NCBI RefSeq assembly: GCF_000235565.1
Contig: NC_017527.1
Span: 496,001 to 560,000 of the forward strand
Reading direction: 5' to 3'
Length of the DNA stretch: 64,000 bases
DNA from: Methanothrix harundinacea 6Ac
GTDB lineage: Archaea; Halobacteriota; Methanosarcinia; Methanotrichales; Methanotrichaceae
Notes under the pieces: generated by a model
What the model saw: the letters and a program-made list of their open reading frames with translations, nothing else
What the model was told of the DNA's origin: nothing
Databases searched by the model: none
In this document: positions 30,920 through 62,978 of the stretch, one piece after another
Layout of the letters: every line of letters starts with the position of its first letter
Numbering within the stretch: the stretch's first letter is position 1
Program-made: the position numbers and the translations under genes

Positions 30920-31006
30920 GCCTTAGTGGCGTGGGAGATCATCAGCCCTCGCGTCTTCGGAAGGGCTTTATCCTCAGAGCGCCCCAGATCGCCGGGGAGA
31001 TCTATC

Positions 31007-31498
31007 TTGATATCGATCTCGCTTTGGTCCCAGGGAGCCTTGTGCATCCTCCTTTCTGCCTTATTACCTGCGGGGGCGGCCACCGACGGAGGCGAGCCGT
31101 CGAGCGGGCTCTTCAGGATCGAGGACGGGGCTGTGGTCATAGACTGGTCCCCGGGGACGGGCTTTTCCCTCAACCCCCCAGGATCCTGGAGGAACCTGAC
31201 CGATTCGGCGGGGGAAGAGGCCAGCAGCCACCTCCCAGGGGGTGGAGGCGGGGGATCGGATCTGAGGCGGTCCGCCCCAGCCTCCACGGAGGGGTGGGGG
31301 GTCTACGGCGGAGGCCTCGGCGGCGCCCATATCGGGTGGGCCTCACGCGGCCTCCGGGGCGGCGGCCATGGCCGCCCCGCCGAGTACGGCCGGAGGGCGA
31401 CGGACCTGGTGGGGGTATTCTCCATCGATATGACGATAAAGCTCGGATCGAAGGGCCCCACCAACCTCTCGGAGGCGGAGTGGATCGGCTGCCCGTAG
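31007..31498 (+). CDS. Small secreted protein, divergent relative of the 59-61 kb surface family
   Basis: From a TTG at 31007 this encodes about 163 residues with a signal peptide (MISISLWSQGALCILLSALL), a Gly-rich middle and a C-terminal domain GGAHIGWASRGL ... EYGRRATDLVGVFSIDMTIKL ... EWIGCP. That C terminus matches, segment by segment, the last 55 residues of the proteins at 59216-60016 and 60498-61298 (GVAHIGWLSKDV, WGRSVEDLTGVFSIEKFIQL, DWLPCI). It lacks their Cys-rich central part. A GGGGAG site lies about six bases before the TTG; the frame stays open upstream to a GTG at 30926. Function unknown. Confidence 0.55.
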   Translation: MISISLWSQGALCILLSALLPAGAATDGGEPSSGLFRIEDGAVVIDWSPGTGFSLNPPGSWRNLTDSAGEEASSHLPGGGGGGSDLRRSAPASTEGWGVYGGGLGGAHIGWASRGLRGGGHGRPAEYGRRATDLVGVFSIDMTIKLGSKGPTNLSEAEWIGCP

Positions 31499-57067: not shown

Positions 57068-58184
57068 TCATCCTCCGCTCGAGATGGTTTTGAACCTCTC
57101 GGCGAAGTTGAAGCATGAGCCGTCAAAGCAGCCGAAGCTCGGGGCCGGGTTGTCCTTGAAGATCAGCCTTCTCTGGATCTCGAAGGACCCCAGGAACTCC
57201 TCCCGTTCTCTGGTGCTCCTCTGACCGGGGATCGTCTGCTTGGCGTCGATGGCCAGATACCCGGTGAAGTTGTCCGCCGTCTGGAACTCCGCCCTCCGGT
57301 GGGGGCCGGTGTGGTGGAGGTCTATCTGCTGGACCTCGTACTCCATCTCCTGGAAGTTGTAGCTCTCGTGGACCCTCGGCCCCCACCCCCCCGAAGACCA
57401 TGGAGCTTCTGACCGACTCGGTCCCCATCAGGGTGTCTCCGGGGTTTTGGGCGACGTAGTTCTCCACGGCATCGCACTCCTGGAAGGTGGGGTTGCCACC
57501 TTTCGCCTTCTCCACCAGGTACTCGTTCTTCATCAGAGTGTCGACGCTGCCGCTGAAGTAGATGTCCTTGTTGGACTTGACCCCGGTGTTCATGCTCCGG
57601 ACGTCTTTGTTCATCGTGAACTGACCGCTACCGCTGACGGAGGTCTCGGAGACGTAGTCGTAGTTTTGAAGCTTGAACCCAGCGATGGCTGACCCCGACT
57701 TGAAGCTTGGGGCTGAGGCGGTCACCTGGAAGTCGTAATCTCCCGGCGGCGCCTTCATATCGGGGGTCACAGGAAGGACTTCGGTCCCCACGCTACCCGC
57801 CGCTACCGTCATGACCAGCTCGGTCCATCCGAACCAGCCGGGTCTGCAGTTCTTGGGGACGGCCACCAGCTTCACATCCGCGTCGGAGCACCCCAGGTTC
57901 TCCACGGTGACGATGTACTCCAGGGTCTTTCCCGGGGTGGCGTAGTTCTGGTCATGGCCGGACTTCGGCCCGGAGAGATCGACGGATACTCGAAGCTCCC
58001 CCAGGATCCGGGGCGCGGAGGGCCATACGGTCCCCGATACGGGTCCCGATACGGGACCTGATGCAGGCCCCGTGGCAGCCGCCTCCAAATTCCACTCCGA
58101 TTCCGGCCCCTGCCTCGTCTCTTCGACGGTGGCAAAGGCCGTCTGGGCCGCCAGAAATAGAAGGATCATCAGGCATTTCTTCAC
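57068..58184 (-). pseudogene. Secreted surface protein, frame broken at a G7 run
   Basis: From a GTG at 58184 the frame encodes a signal peptide (MKKCLMILLFLAAQTAFA), a Pro/Gly linker, a CARDB-like domain (about 65-165; ENLGCSDADVKLVAVPKN) and the start of a beta domain (NKDVRSMNTGVKSNKDIYFSG). Near 57380 the correct reading changes frame: the sequel (GWGPRVHESYNFQEMEYEV ... GSFEIQRRLIFKDNP ... CFDGSC) lies in another frame down to 57068. The change falls on a run of seven G (minus strand) followed by T and five G; six G would restore one 372-residue protein. The C-terminal part resembles the gene at 58324-59028. Either a pseudogene, a phase-variable gene or a sequencing indel. Confidence 0.7.
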
Positions 58185-58323: not shown

Positions 58324-59028
58324 TCAGCAGTCCACTCCCGCGCACGGGCACGGTCTCGGTTCATATACTGGGTTCTCGTGGAACTTGATCTCCTTCTGGA
58401 CCTCGAAGTCACCGCGGAAGAGTTCGTGGCTCTTTATGTCCTTGTAGAAGATCTTGTGCATGCTGGCGTCGGTTCCCCAGGTACCGTTGAAGCTGTTGAG
58501 GGTCTGGAGGCCTACGGTGTGGACTATCGTCGAGTTCTTCGTCGAGCCGAAGAAGACCGTCTGGTCCTTCTCCATCTCGTTGACGCTGAACATCTCCTGG
58601 ATGTTCGCACCGATGCCGCCGTAGAACGCCTTGGAGTTGATGAACTTCCCGCCCTGGAGAGGCGCGTTCTTCACCGCGAAGGTGAGCTTGGTGTTCTCAT
58701 AGAAGTTCAGGTTCGCGTAGGTCGAGTCGTTCTTTTGACAGTCCGTCTCGTTGTAGTTCGGGATCGGCCTCTTCAGCTTGTTCGGCTCCTGCGAGTAGAC
58801 GTGGGTGGAGTCCATCTCCAGAGTGCCGTCGCCCGACATCATGTCGTAGTACTCGAGGGCTATCTTCTTATCAACGATGGAGGTTGCCACGTCGATGTAA
58901 CCGGTCCCGCTGACCAGCGCATTCTCACAAAACTGCTCGTACTGAATCGGCTCCTTTAATGGCGGGTTGGCTACAGCTAAGCTACACGCCAATGCAAGTG
59001 CCACCAGTATCGCTATTACTCCCTTCAT
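58324..59028 (-). CDS. Secreted Cys-containing surface protein
   Basis: The protein (234 residues) has a signal peptide (1-20), a beta-rich mature domain (VSGTGYIDVATSIVDKKIALEY; NKLKRPIPNYNETDC; NAPLQGGKFINSKAF) and a Cys-rich end (PRPCPCAGVDC). The segment RGDFEVQKEIKFHENP matches GSFEIQRRLIFKDNP of the neighbouring frameshifted gene, so they belong to one family. Several N-x-S/T sites suggest N-glycosylation. A GGGGGTG site lies upstream of the ATG. Function is unknown; a sheath or surface-layer role is inferred. Confidence 0.72.
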   Translation of the reverse strand: MKGVIAILVALALACSLAVANPPLKEPIQYEQFCENALVSGTGYIDVATSIVDKKIALEYYDMMSGDGTLEMDSTHVYSQEPNKLKRPIPNYNETDCQKNDSTYANLNFYENTKLTFAVKNAPLQGGKFINSKAFYGGIGANIQEMFSVNEMEKDQTVFFGSTKNSTIVHTVGLQTLNSFNGTWGTDASMHKIFYKDIKSHELFRGDFEVQKEIKFHENPVYEPRPCPCAGVDC

Positions 59029-59215: not shown

Positions 59216-60016
59216 TCAGATGCAGGGGAGCCAGTCGACCTGGACTTCGCCGCAGGTTCCGTTGCCCCAGAGCTGGATGAACTTCTCGATGGAGAAGACG
59301 CCCGTCAGGTCCTCAACGGAGCGGCCCCACTCGTAGTGCCTGCCCTTGCAGTTGACCATGACGTCCTTGGAGAGCCAGCCGATGTGGGCTACACCGATGA
59401 CGTTGGAGTTGAAGTTCGCCTCGAGGGCGCCGGTGCAGTTGCCGCAGCCGAAGCAGCCGTCAGAGCCGCAGCCCTCTGGGTCCCAAACACCACAGTCGCG
59501 CCTGGTCTTGACCTCGGTGTTCTTCTGGAGGTGCTCGGCGTGGGTGTACATCTCGACGACTACAGCTCCGATGTAGTAGTTCTGGACGCAGAGCTTCTCG
59601 ATCCACTTCTGGTCGTAGGTGCCGGTCTGGTAGCTCACAGGCATGTACTCAAACTCGGCCTCCTTGTTGAAGTTGATGTAGTCGACGCAGCAGCAGGGAT
59701 CGTTCCAGCCCTCGATGATGCAGGGGCCAGGTGTCGTAGAATTATATTCAGATCCACACGGCTCATTGCAGCACCAGGGTCCGAAGGGGTCCCTCTCGGC
59801 CTCGATCTCAGTTCTCTGGGTGATGACGTTTCCGCTTCCAGACTCCTTCTCGACCAGCTTGTTTCCGTTCAGGCCGGGTTGAGTCTGAATGATGATCTCT
59901 ACGTTCTTGTAGCCGACGCCCTTGATGTTGGCCTTCTCGTACATGTAGTTGGCAGCGCCAGCCATGCCCACCAGGGCGACTCCGATGACTAGTAAAATAG
60001 CCAGTTCTCTCTTCAT
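59216..60016 (-). CDS. Cys-rich secreted surface protein, tandem copy A
   Basis: The protein (266 residues) starts with a signal peptide (MKRELAILLVIGVALVGMAG). A conserved beta domain (YEKANIKGVGYKNVEIIIQT) follows, then a variable Cys-rich loop (PWCCNEPCGSEYNSTTPGPC), a conserved middle (DYINFNKEAEFEYMPVSYQT), a second variable Cys loop (CGVWDPEGCGSDGCFGCGNC) and a conserved C terminus (AHIGWLSKDVMVN ... DWLPCI). About 18 Cys predict heavy disulfide cross-linking outside the cell. GGAGGTGGGA precedes the ATG. It is nearly identical to copy B outside the two loops. A sheath component is possible but unproven. Confidence 0.75.
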   Translation of the reverse strand: MKRELAILLVIGVALVGMAGAANYMYEKANIKGVGYKNVEIIIQTQPGLNGNKLVEKESGSGNVITQRTEIEAERDPFGPWCCNEPCGSEYNSTTPGPCIIEGWNDPCCCVDYINFNKEAEFEYMPVSYQTGTYDQKWIEKLCVQNYYIGAVVVEMYTHAEHLQKNTEVKTRRDCGVWDPEGCGSDGCFGCGNCTGALEANFNSNVIGVAHIGWLSKDVMVNCKGRHYEWGRSVEDLTGVFSIEKFIQLWGNGTCGEVQVDWLPCI

Positions 60017-60497
60017 TCAGTTCCCACCTCCGTTCTTCATTCTATACCCTCGTTCGTCCGCCACCACTTCTGGCCGCAAAGGCGGCCCTCGGATGGAGGA
60101 CAACTTCGCTCCTCAGAGTTTTCGCCTGGATGCACGGGTCCCAGATCCTCGCAAAAACCGCGGAGGCATCAGTCCCGCCAAGCCGGGATACTCCAGCAGA
60201 AGCTGCACCACCCCCCCCTTGGAGCTTCAAGCCTGCCCCGAGAGCTTCAATCGTATCAAAGTTCTTTCGGCCAGGCACATCCTCTTCTTCAGGTTGATGG
60301 CATATAAATCTATCGAGCCCTCCCCCAATCTCCCACGACGCTGGTCATCACAGCGGTCCCCGGGCCCGAGATTAGAAGGCCGGTTTCCGTCAGCAGGACG
60401 ATGAGGCGGACGGGATATCAGAGAGGCGTTAAAGCCGCTCAATAAAGGCGGCCCTTGAATGAAGCCAGAAAAAAAGTGGAAGCGGGAACTTCCGTGC
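60017..60497. other. Spacer between the tandem surface-protein genes
   Basis: These 480 bases hold no supported gene. A TATA-like GGGTATAGAATG (minus strand, about 60036-60047) precedes copy A. The rest is GC-rich and not recognisably similar to the region upstream of copy B. Confidence 0.4.
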
Positions 60498-61298
60498 TCA
60501 GATGCAGGGGAGCCAGTCGACCTGGACTTCGCCGCAGGTTCCGTTGCCCCAGAGCTGGATGAACTTCTCGATGGAGAAGACGCCCGTCAGGTCCTCAACG
60601 GAGCGGCCCCACTCGTAGTGCCTGCCCTTGCAGTTGACCATGACGTCCTTGGAGAGCCAGCCGATGTGGGCTACACCGATGACGTTGGAGTTGAAGTTCG
60701 CCTCGAGGGCGCCGGTGCAGTTGCCGCAGCCGAAGCAGCCGTTAGCGCCGCAGTTCGTCGAATTCCAGCCGCTACAGTCGCGCCTGGTCTTGACCTCGGT
60801 GTTCTTCTGGAGGTGCTCGGCGTGGGTGTACATCTCGACGACTACAGCTCCGATGTAGTAGTTCTGGACGCAGAGCTTCTCGATCCACTTCTGGTCGTAG
60901 GTGCCGGTCTGGTAGCTCACAGGCATGTACTCAAACTCGGCCTCCTTGTTGAAGTTGATGTAATCGACGCAGCAGCAACCGTCATTATAGCCCTCGATGA
61001 TGCAGGGGTCAGACGGAGAGGATCCCCAGGGAGATCCACACTCGGTCCCGCAGCACCAGGGTCCATAGGGGTCCCTCTCGGCCTCGATCTCGGTCCTCTC
61101 GGTGATGACGTTTCCGCTTCCAGACTCCTTCTCGACCAGCTTGTTTCCGTTGAGGCCGGGCTGAGTCTGAATGATGGTCTCTACGTTCTTGTAGCCAACG
61201 CCCTTGATGTTGGCCTTCTCGTACATGTAGTTGGCAGCGCAGGACATCCCCACCAGGGCGATACAGGCTACCAACAAAATAGCTAGTTCTCTCCTCGT
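60498..61298 (-). CDS. Cys-rich secreted surface protein, tandem copy B, with ACG at the start position
   Basis: This is a close paralogue of 59216-60016. The conserved blocks are almost unchanged, but both Cys loops differ (WCCGTECGSPWGSSPSDPC; CSGWNSTNCGANGCFGCGNC). Where copy A has ATG-AAG-AGA-GAA, this copy reads ACG-AGG-AGA-GAA (61298 downward), with the AGGTGGGA ribosome binding site kept in place. Translation must use ACG, a TTG at 61277 or 61280, or be lost. From TTG 61277 the protein is 259 residues, with a signal peptide shortened at its charged end (MLVACIALVGMSCAA). Confidence 0.7.
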   Translation of the reverse strand, partial: TRRELAILLVACIALVGMSCAANYMYEKANIKGVGYKNVETIIQTQPGLNGNKLVEKESGSGNVITERTEIEAERDPYGPWCCGTECGSPWGSSPSDPCIIEGYNDGCCCVDYINFNKEAEFEYMPVSYQTGTYDQKWIEKLCVQNYYIGAVVVEMYTHAEHLQKNTEVKTRRDCSGWNSTNCGANGCFGCGNCTGALEANFNSNVIGVAHIGWLSKDVMVNCKGRHYEWGRSVEDLTGVFSIEKFIQLWGNGTCGEVQVDWLPCI

Positions 61299-61626: not shown

Positions 61627-61701
61627 TGCTCCGGCCGGGATTTGAACCCGGGTCTTCGGCTCGAAAGGCCGGAATGATTGGCCGGACTACACTACCGGAG
61701 C
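61627..61701 (-). tRNA. tRNA-Glu (TTC)
   Basis: On the minus strand acceptor GCTCCGG pairs with CCGGAGC, the anticodon loop CTTTCGA gives TTC, and the T arm contains GTTCAAATC. Discriminator A; CCA not encoded. Confidence 0.95.
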
Positions 61702-61827
61702 GCTCGATCTTCGGGTCCGATCATCCCTGAGGCGGTCGGGCACCCATCTTCCAGACTTTGGCCCTCTATATCTACGTTTCTCATCTCCGACCCGATAGGC
61801 TGCGGGGGCCCCGAGGGCGGGACTTTA

Positions 61828-61900
61828 TAGTCCCGGGCGGATTCGAACCACCGTCCCAGGCTCCAAAGGCCTGCAGGATTGACCACTACCCCACGGGACT
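61828..61900 (-). tRNA. tRNA-Gln (TTG)
   Basis: On the minus strand acceptor AGTCCCG pairs with CGGGACT, the anticodon loop CTTTGGA gives TTG, and the T arm contains GTTCGAATC. Discriminator A; CCA not encoded. It follows the same strand as tRNA-Glu, 126 bases away. Confidence 0.95.
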
Positions 61901-61944
61901 CCTCGGCCGCCCTCGGGCTTGCAGCCCCCGCGGGGACATCTATC

Positions 61945-61961
61945 TGCATAAGATATATATC
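61945..61961 (+). promoter_or_regulatory. TATA promoter of nrpR
   Basis: The AT-rich GATATATAT core within 61945-61961 lies about 30 bases before the nrpR ATG, giving a very short leader. Confidence 0.5.
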
Positions 61962-61985
61962 CGCTTCCCCGCCAGGGATCCGGAG

Positions 61986-62978
61986 ATGAAGCTGATCACC
62001 AAGCCCCATTCTAGCCAACGGAGGCTGATAGAGATCCTCAGGGTGATAAACGCGGCGGAGAAGCCGATCGGCGCGAGGGCCATCTCCGACGAGCTATCCA
62101 GCAGGGGCTACGAGGTCGGGGAGCGGGCCGTCCGGTACAACCTGAAGATCATGGATGAGCTGGGGTTCACGAAGAAGGAGGGTTACAGCGGCCGAGTCCT
62201 CACCCCCCTGGGGCGCCGGGAGCTCTCCGATGCCCTCGTCGACGACAGGGTCGGCTTCGTAAACGCCAGGATCGAGGAGTACATGTACCGGTCGAGCTTC
62301 GATCCCGGCTCTGAGAACAACAGGGTGGTCGTCAACACCAGCCTGCTGGATAAGAGGGACTCGGAGAGGGCCCTGGCAGCGATGAAGGCGGTCTTCGATG
62401 CGGGCTTTGCCGTCAGCAGGAGGGTTCTGATCCAGGACGAGGGGGAGGAGATGGGGGGGGCGGCGGTCCCCCGAGGTTTCCTGGGGATCTCGACCGTCTG
62501 CAGCATCACCGTCGACGGGATGCTCCTCCGGGGAGGGATCCCGGTGAATACCACCTTTGCGGGGGTCGTGGATGTGAGGGAGGGTTCCCTCTACCAGTTC
62601 ACCGACCTCCTCGCCTATGCCGGGTCGTCCCTCGATCCCATCAGGGTTCTGATGTCCAGGAAGGCCGCCCGGATCACCGGGGCAGTCAAGACAGGGAACG
62701 GCGGCCTTTTGGCCAACCTGAGGGAGATCCCGGTCGCCGCCATCGGACAGGCCCGGGAGTTGCTGGAGATGGCGAAGGGGGCCGGCATCGACGGGGTGAT
62801 GAGGATCAGCGAGCCGGGGGAGCCGAACATGGGGTGTCCCGTAGGGGCCGGGAAGGTGGGGATCGCCCTATGCGCCGGGGTCAACGCCGTCCTGGCGGCG
62901 GAGGAGCTGGGGGCTGAGATCAGGACGACGCCCATCTCCTCCATCCAGGAGTACGGCAGGATGAAAGAGCTCCGCTGA
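61986..62978 (+). CDS. nrpR: Nitrogen-regulatory repressor NrpR, single-NRD (NrpRI-like)
   Basis: The protein (330 residues) has an N-terminal winged helix (SQRRLIEILRVINAAEKPIGARAISDEL to KEGYSGRVLTPLGRREL, about 10-80) and one NrpR regulatory (DUF128) domain (about 100-325). The latter includes DEGEEMGGAAVPRGFLGISTVCSI, NTTFAGVVDVREG and CPVGAGKVGIALCAGVN. NrpR represses nitrogen-assimilation genes and is released by 2-oxoglutarate. In Methanosarcina, NrpRI (HTH plus one domain) works with a separate NrpRII; the partner is not in this window. The ATG at 61986 follows a TATA box by about 30 bases. Confidence 0.9.
   Translation: MKLITKPHSSQRRLIEILRVINAAEKPIGARAISDELSSRGYEVGERAVRYNLKIMDELGFTKKEGYSGRVLTPLGRRELSDALVDDRVGFVNARIEEYMYRSSFDPGSENNRVVVNTSLLDKRDSERALAAMKAVFDAGFAVSRRVLIQDEGEEMGGAAVPRGFLGISTVCSITVDGMLLRGGIPVNTTFAGVVDVREGSLYQFTDLLAYAGSSLDPIRVLMSRKAARITGAVKTGNGGLLANLREIPVAAIGQARELLEMAKGAGIDGVMRISEPGEPNMGCPVGAGKVGIALCAGVNAVLAAEELGAEIRTTPISSIQEYGRMKELR

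Follow-up and report, generated by a model that had tools for sequence, protein, structure and literature searches.

Tandem sheath-type proteins of Methanothrix harundinacea 6Ac: a conserved core carrying loops that are probably exchanged by recombination

SH sheath proteins are known from Methanotrichales, Methanospirillum and ANME-1 (Medvedeva 2024, PMC11576556), and the family, the diversity of its caps and its tandem duplication have already been published in that account. The SH core has been reported as two six-stranded beta-sheets and as amyloid-like. According to PMC11576556, S-layer genes and tRNA/rRNA biosynthesis genes occur near SH genes, each Methanotrichales genome holds a single SH cluster, and SH-like viral proteins exist that in most cases have no cap. 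The SH protein of Methanospirillum hungatei (SH/MspA), described together with a model of the sheath (PMC10593813, PMC6242892), is presented as an amyloid-like, ring-forming subunit with an outward cap, and disulphides between neighbouring rings have been proposed via a linker loop. The likeness to the family studied here is drawn from that description; disulphides are suggested here as well, but the M. hungatei cap is helical and has two Cys, whereas the present proteins have two short loops with many Cys and four near-universal core Cys. A further likeness is offered by Haloquadratum walsbyi (PMC4535781), an archaeon whose cell-wall genomic island is a surface locus reported to vary among members of one natural population, although there whole-island versions vary and here two loops of one gene. 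The family itself is known, and the new part of our work is the manner in which the loops evolve: PMC11576556, as far as its text was available to us, covers the architecture of caps and the duplication and transfer of entire genes, whereas loop exchange and loop-to-loop co-variation of Cys come only from the present analysis. The main text of PMC11576556 makes no use of recombin-, gene conversion or selection as terms, and among the papers listed in literature searches, as represented by titles and the openings of abstracts, none describes loop exchange in sheath proteins.

The locus reported here lies in the window (the whole stretch of DNA analysed, 64,000 nucleotides) and consists of two tandem copies, A and B, with conserved neighbours. 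One genome of the sister genus, G046 (one contig of 1,879,471 bases, which we take to be M. thermoacetophila PT), carries a single copy, P, surrounded by the same gene order as A/B. The features of the locus are as follows.

57123..58184, minus strand: third gene of the conserved locus; 55% identity to its G046 counterpart, relative to which its frame is broken
58324..59028, minus strand: second gene of the conserved locus; 234 aa, 47% identity to its G046 counterpart
59216..60016, minus strand: copy A, putative sheath-type protein of 266 aa with an ATG start (from the ORF and the alignment with B)
59951..60016, minus strand: signal-peptide region of A, residues 1-22 (boundary by eye), diverged from B
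59687..59785, minus strand: hypervariable loop 1 of A, residues 78-110; 7 Cys; strand-free and partly of low confidence in the model
59438..59494, minus strand: hypervariable loop 2 of A, residues 175-193; 4 Cys; strand-free and partly of low confidence in the model
60498..61298, minus strand: copy B, colinear with A; ACG (61296-61298) replaces the ATG of A, and the first ATG, GTG or TTG in the frame, also the nearest listed start, is TTG at 61277
61233..61298, minus strand: signal-peptide region of B, diverged from A
60969..61067, minus strand: hypervariable loop 1 of B; 10 informative sites in common with copy E
60720..60776, minus strand: hypervariable loop 2 of B, diverged from A
61627..61701, minus strand: tRNA-Glu beside the locus
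61828..61900, minus strand: tRNA-Gln beside the locus

Identity to the G046 counterparts is 68% for A/B and 53% for 61758-62978. An S-layer gene is found about 14 kb from the A/B locus and 11 kb from P in G046, near but not adjacent.

The proteins of copies A and B are 89% identical, and on proper alignment the divergence of their genes is uneven. The scaffold (residues 23-77, 111-174 and 194-266 in A numbering) differs at 8/576 bases and both loops together at 46/156 (Fisher p = 9e-26), which bears out the sequence-only reading of near-identical blocks interrupted by two strongly divergent Cys loops. That reading had also confined the divergence to the two loops, which was right as to the loops but too narrow, since the signal-peptide regions differ at 16/66 bases and form a third divergent zone. 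Its statement that the Cys spacing of the loops is kept is true between A and B but not of copies C and E, where the spacing is altered. Synonymous differences amount to 6/126 in the scaffold and 12.7/35 in the loops, and because synonymous sites in the loops have diverged too, the contrast between loops and scaffold is not explained by protein constraint alone. The 60 bases flanking A and B on each side have no evident similarity, by eye, past a few bases. Given its start region, copy B may be poorly translated or started elsewhere. Residues 183-194 of A hold a C-x4-C-x2-C-x2-C motif in loop 2, which together with loop 1 makes up the clustered Cys of this genus; these might alternatively coordinate a metal.

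Constant scaffold and variable loops are a property of the whole family and not private to A and B. Across 90 ORFs from 33 genome labels (those of 113 ORFs with a score of 320 or more, including F, two cut C copies and the initial part of D), a single residue fills 95% or more of the rows in 131/189 scaffold columns and in 0/57 loop columns. The proposed combination of a uniform scaffold with diversifying loops extends well beyond the pair on which it was based; the loops vary widely from species to species, contrary to the refuting case of invariant loops named beforehand. A reference set was drawn from the same 113 ORFs, of which 26 were skipped, and comprised 85 references; 80 were used, the two cut C copies, the D part, L107 and L121 being left out. 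In some members loop 1 reaches 88 and loop 2 125 residues, and certain loop types recur across genomes (L064 with L069, L033 with L037).

The family was matched in 50/50 Methanotrichaceae genomes searched and, at E <= 1e-5, in 14/294 genomes of the phylum, 10 of them Methanotrichaceae; presence in all Methanotrichales with patchy occurrence elsewhere is an SH trait. As in the SH proteins of PMC11576556, the genes here are multi-copy with near-identical tandem neighbours, a variable, putative cap sits on a constant core and virus-encoded relatives are mostly capless; the S-layer gene stands at the distance given above. We consider it highly probable that the A/B family is the SH sheath family, on the basis of distribution and context and not of a fold match, and P is likely one of the named SH genes. 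The earlier suggestion of sheath subunits is likewise rendered likely by the distribution, the context and the virus-encoded relatives. One mismatch weakens the SH assignment, namely that PMC11576556 describes a single SH cluster per Methanotrichales genome whereas A-type copies are here scattered over four places. Direct profile matches were not obtained: in Pfam A was matched only far below the cut-off (E 0.3), NCBIfam gave no match for A or for P of G046, PHROGs none for the A-type protein of L139 used as query, and tblastn against phage records none at E <= 0.1, while the single match to a PDB sequence profile (E 0.96) was disregarded. Profile comparison of A with two neighbouring genes revealed no homology.

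A search for more copies, which had been recommended as a check, found them. The genome of 2,571,034 bases contains the full-size copies C, D (frameshifted) and E, a copy F without loops and several weaker relatives, so that A-type copies occupy four distant places (A/B, C/D, E and F), with A to E all on one contig of 2.56 Mb. A 190 aa ORF in the window (30926-31498, plus strand) matches residues 206-265 of A (E 2.7e-8) and is an outlying or decayed relative. The second tandem pair, C and D, differs at 7/576 scaffold, 1/66 signal-peptide and 58/198 loop bases; the signal peptide is common to both and the loops are nonetheless different. In copy D (G000:C2:1407728-1408616, L007) the reading frame is broken inside loop 2, at a proline-rich expansion. 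Switching of D by slipped repeats was considered and rejected, as the proline-coding repeats look 9 and 27 bases long by eye and a change in the number of such multiples of three would leave the frame unshifted. A hydrophobic N-terminus is seen by eye in A, C, D and E.

In a scaffold tree (FastTree, rooted on F), copies A, B, C and E, which come from three loci far apart, cluster with a support of 0.86, despite the A/B and C/D loci having counterparts in other species. The scaffold distance between B and C is 3.2%, compared with 4.9% from B to L052 and 6.8% from C to L051, the respective counterparts in LUYE. This grouping of sequences fits conversion between copies, though strong codon constraint could contribute. 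The gene conversion of the scaffold proposed from A and B alone receives some support in this way for the M. harundinacea genome; grouping by genome of the copies from the two loci was not seen in the relatives LUYE, DAXT or DAQG, and trees of single scaffold blocks disagree on homogenisation. Where two distinct copies of one genome have a scaffold pS < 0.15 (counted without the rows of the cut C copies and the D part), 6/12 pairs have both loops at least 84% alike, 3 of these 6 coming from one genome. Within M. harundinacea, 10/17 informative sites of loop 1 join B with E; in scaffold blocks 2 and 3, 10/12 sites unite A and B, and block 1 gives 3 sites for A+E and 3 for C+D; no clear grouping by loop 2 was found among these copies.

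The history of the loops is best followed in the sister genus, where P was compared in five genomes and a second paralog, Q, in six. Substitution in loops and scaffold, a comparison among relatives that had been advised, separates the two regions strongly at P: the mean pS/pN of the core is 0.114/0.013, that of loop 1 0.625/0.386 and that of loop 2 0.349/0.348, the loop values carrying the uncertainty of the loop alignment. At Q the corresponding values are 0.225/0.002, 0.191/0.025 and 0.292/0.059, its loops being nearly constant over the six genomes, unlike those of P. Between G046 and G044, P differs at 1/640 upstream bases (signal peptide included), 8/588 scaffold bases and 44/84 loop bases, and one flanking gene has a pS of 0.008; between G046 and G043 the counts are 7/640, 7/588 and 42/84. 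In loop 1, G046 matches the more distant G042 and G043 matches G041, with 14/22 informative sites for G046+G042 and 0 for G046+G044+G043, a grouping that is supported by 20/22 upstream, 9/13 scaffold and 39/73 downstream sites. Loop 2 of P has only 4 informative sites and gave no clear grouping. Within a loop-1 type, protein-changing differences number 2/45 and 2/42 and silent differences 4/12 and 5/14, which are small counts, and the silent distances are close to those of the flanking genes in the same genome pairs (0.28-0.38). With few protein changes and flank-like silent distances, the loop-1 types look old, constrained and moved between backgrounds. Even within a type the loops still exceed the scaffold (12/84 vs 24/588 and 15/84 vs 30/588). 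The loop-1 types cross the gene tree at P, where 4/5 genomes are multi-contig assemblies in which strain mixing could mimic swaps. We judge it very likely that loop types are exchanged by recombination; recombination of loops between copies is a point that the sequence-only reading did not contain.

The cysteines and two structure models provide a tentative architecture for these loops. Four core Cys (residues 143, 194, 255 and 265 of A) are present in 94-100% of rows. The total number of Cys is even in 75/81 complete distinct proteins (from the 90 rows, 7 incomplete or unlike ones, F among them, and 2 duplicates were dropped), and the parities of loop-1 and loop-2 Cys agree in 70/81. Mapped on a scaffold tree, parity changes 13 times in loop 1 and 12 times in loop 2, with 7 changes on the same branch out of 160 (Fisher p = 2e-6), a count that reflects one parsimony resolution, related sequences and differing loop and scaffold histories; counted by distinct Cys combinations, 11/15 are even (p = 0.12). 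Co-variation of parity between the loops points to disulphides joining them, and the disulphide linkage predicted earlier is suggested in this form, most simply as loop 1 to loop 2. Apart from the loops, both models (pLDDT 76 and 74, which is middling) consist almost entirely of beta structure, including four strands of 23-27 residues and some shorter strands, and the loops are among their least certain parts; Foldseek against PDB and viral models found nothing at E <= 0.001. Because both loops come, in strand order, after long strands running in the same direction, they probably lie at the same pole of the core.

Relatives of the A-type protein are also encoded at 13 loci of the viral collection. 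Loop 1 is short in 11/13 and long in L142 and L144, the distant relatives L161-L164 standing outside this survey. Matches to PHROG tail, head or helicase families lie beside the relative in L149, L150 and L151, and the handful of ORFs checked in L139 and L141 yielded none, these five being the loci covered for neighbours. Retention of the core by viruses, with loops that are mostly shortened, is consistent with an assembling core whose loops have another task.

Taken as a whole, we favour on balance a reading in which a conserved core polymerises and bears a cap pinned by disulphides, the loops of this cap being swapped through recombination. Copies A and B would be a tandem pair encoding an SH-type subunit of the sheath of Methanotrichaceae, and the near-invariant, mostly beta core of this subunit would be the part that polymerises, also with other copies. 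Loops 1 and 2 would be insertions at one pole of this core, forming a small cap pinned by loop-to-loop disulphides of predicted bonding and geometry. Strong selection would hold the core uniform, joined, in this genome at least, by gene conversion among the copies; that homogenisation appears in one genome only weakens the reading as a whole. Loop types would be replaced by recombination between copies and strains, the near-identical core presumably serving as homology arms. The cap is rather likely to face outward, and the loop pattern is one that pressure for change on a surface would be expected to produce. Sheath-recognising viruses or partners may favour such change, though as its driver their recognition is a candidate that we put forward with some doubt, and the antigen or receptor variation suggested from the sequence alone stays at the level of a hypothesis. 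More speculative still is a modular recognition surface, in which the two disulphide-coupled loops travel as cassettes between copies and strains and loop types are kept across species by viruses or syntrophic partners; in that view copies that lack a start codon or an intact frame, B and D for example, might serve as reservoirs of loops. Bacterial pathogens vary their antigens by gene conversion, likewise with a constant frame, variable segments and several copies. The variation here lies between species and copies and not within a clone, and any expression site or donor array would here be hypothetical.

The explanation that competes best with this reading, though we hold it to be unlikely, is that the subunits are specialised, each copy's loop type having a structural job (hoop joints, plugs or adhesion) while conversion keeps the cores compatible, with no arms race. 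The near-constancy of Q loops in six species agrees with it, as do the loop types that recur elsewhere and the fresh duplicates that often retain their loops, and PMC11576556, in the portion available to us, reads cap diversity as specialisation. A fixed structural role does not, however, predict different loop types at the single locus P in near-identical surroundings. That the loops are free linkers under relaxed constraint, drifting and gaining or losing residues, is a good deal less probable. The great length of some loops, the low confidence of the models in them and their excess of differences over the scaffold within a type would all agree with drift. Relaxation raises protein change and not synonymous change, so the high loop pS at P speaks against it, alignment uncertainty included; so do the scarcity of protein change relative to silent change within loop-1 types, small as those counts are, the constraint on Q loops and the largely preserved parity of Cys. 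An artefact of assembly or binning, for which the fragmented state of most genomes at P might be cited, is very improbable given that A to E share one contig, that G046 is a single contig and that the mosaic signal recurs inside the M. harundinacea genome (loop 1 of B with E, scaffold of A with B). A diversity-generating retroelement or other directed mutator would account for variation limited to short windows but is the least credible explanation, as loop lengths differ, types are common to several species and no reverse transcriptase (PF00078) was matched in the M. harundinacea genome (0/1), in a search whose control matched 3/14 known genomes.

Should the loops indeed be exchangeable cassettes on a frozen polymer core, the approximately 50 loop residues of A become the stretch to examine, and the family would supply a molecular marker by which sheath types in digesters and wetlands could be told apart at strain level, as well as an archaeal example of balanced surface variation. 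The loop-to-loop Cys rule represents a testable constraint on the fold of proteins for which no solved relative was found.

Two observations concern the neighbouring genes. When compared with its G046 counterpart, the third gene of the locus (57123-58184, minus strand) has its frame broken near 57375-57391, where the sequence is G-rich; gene decay, recoding or an error of sequencing could account for this. Downstream of P (L128:5891-6706 and its counterparts, corresponding to 58324-59028 in the window), the five genomes diverge in sharply bounded islands, at alignment columns of about 1860 and 2100-2220, and the second gene of the P locus may have exchangeable segments too.
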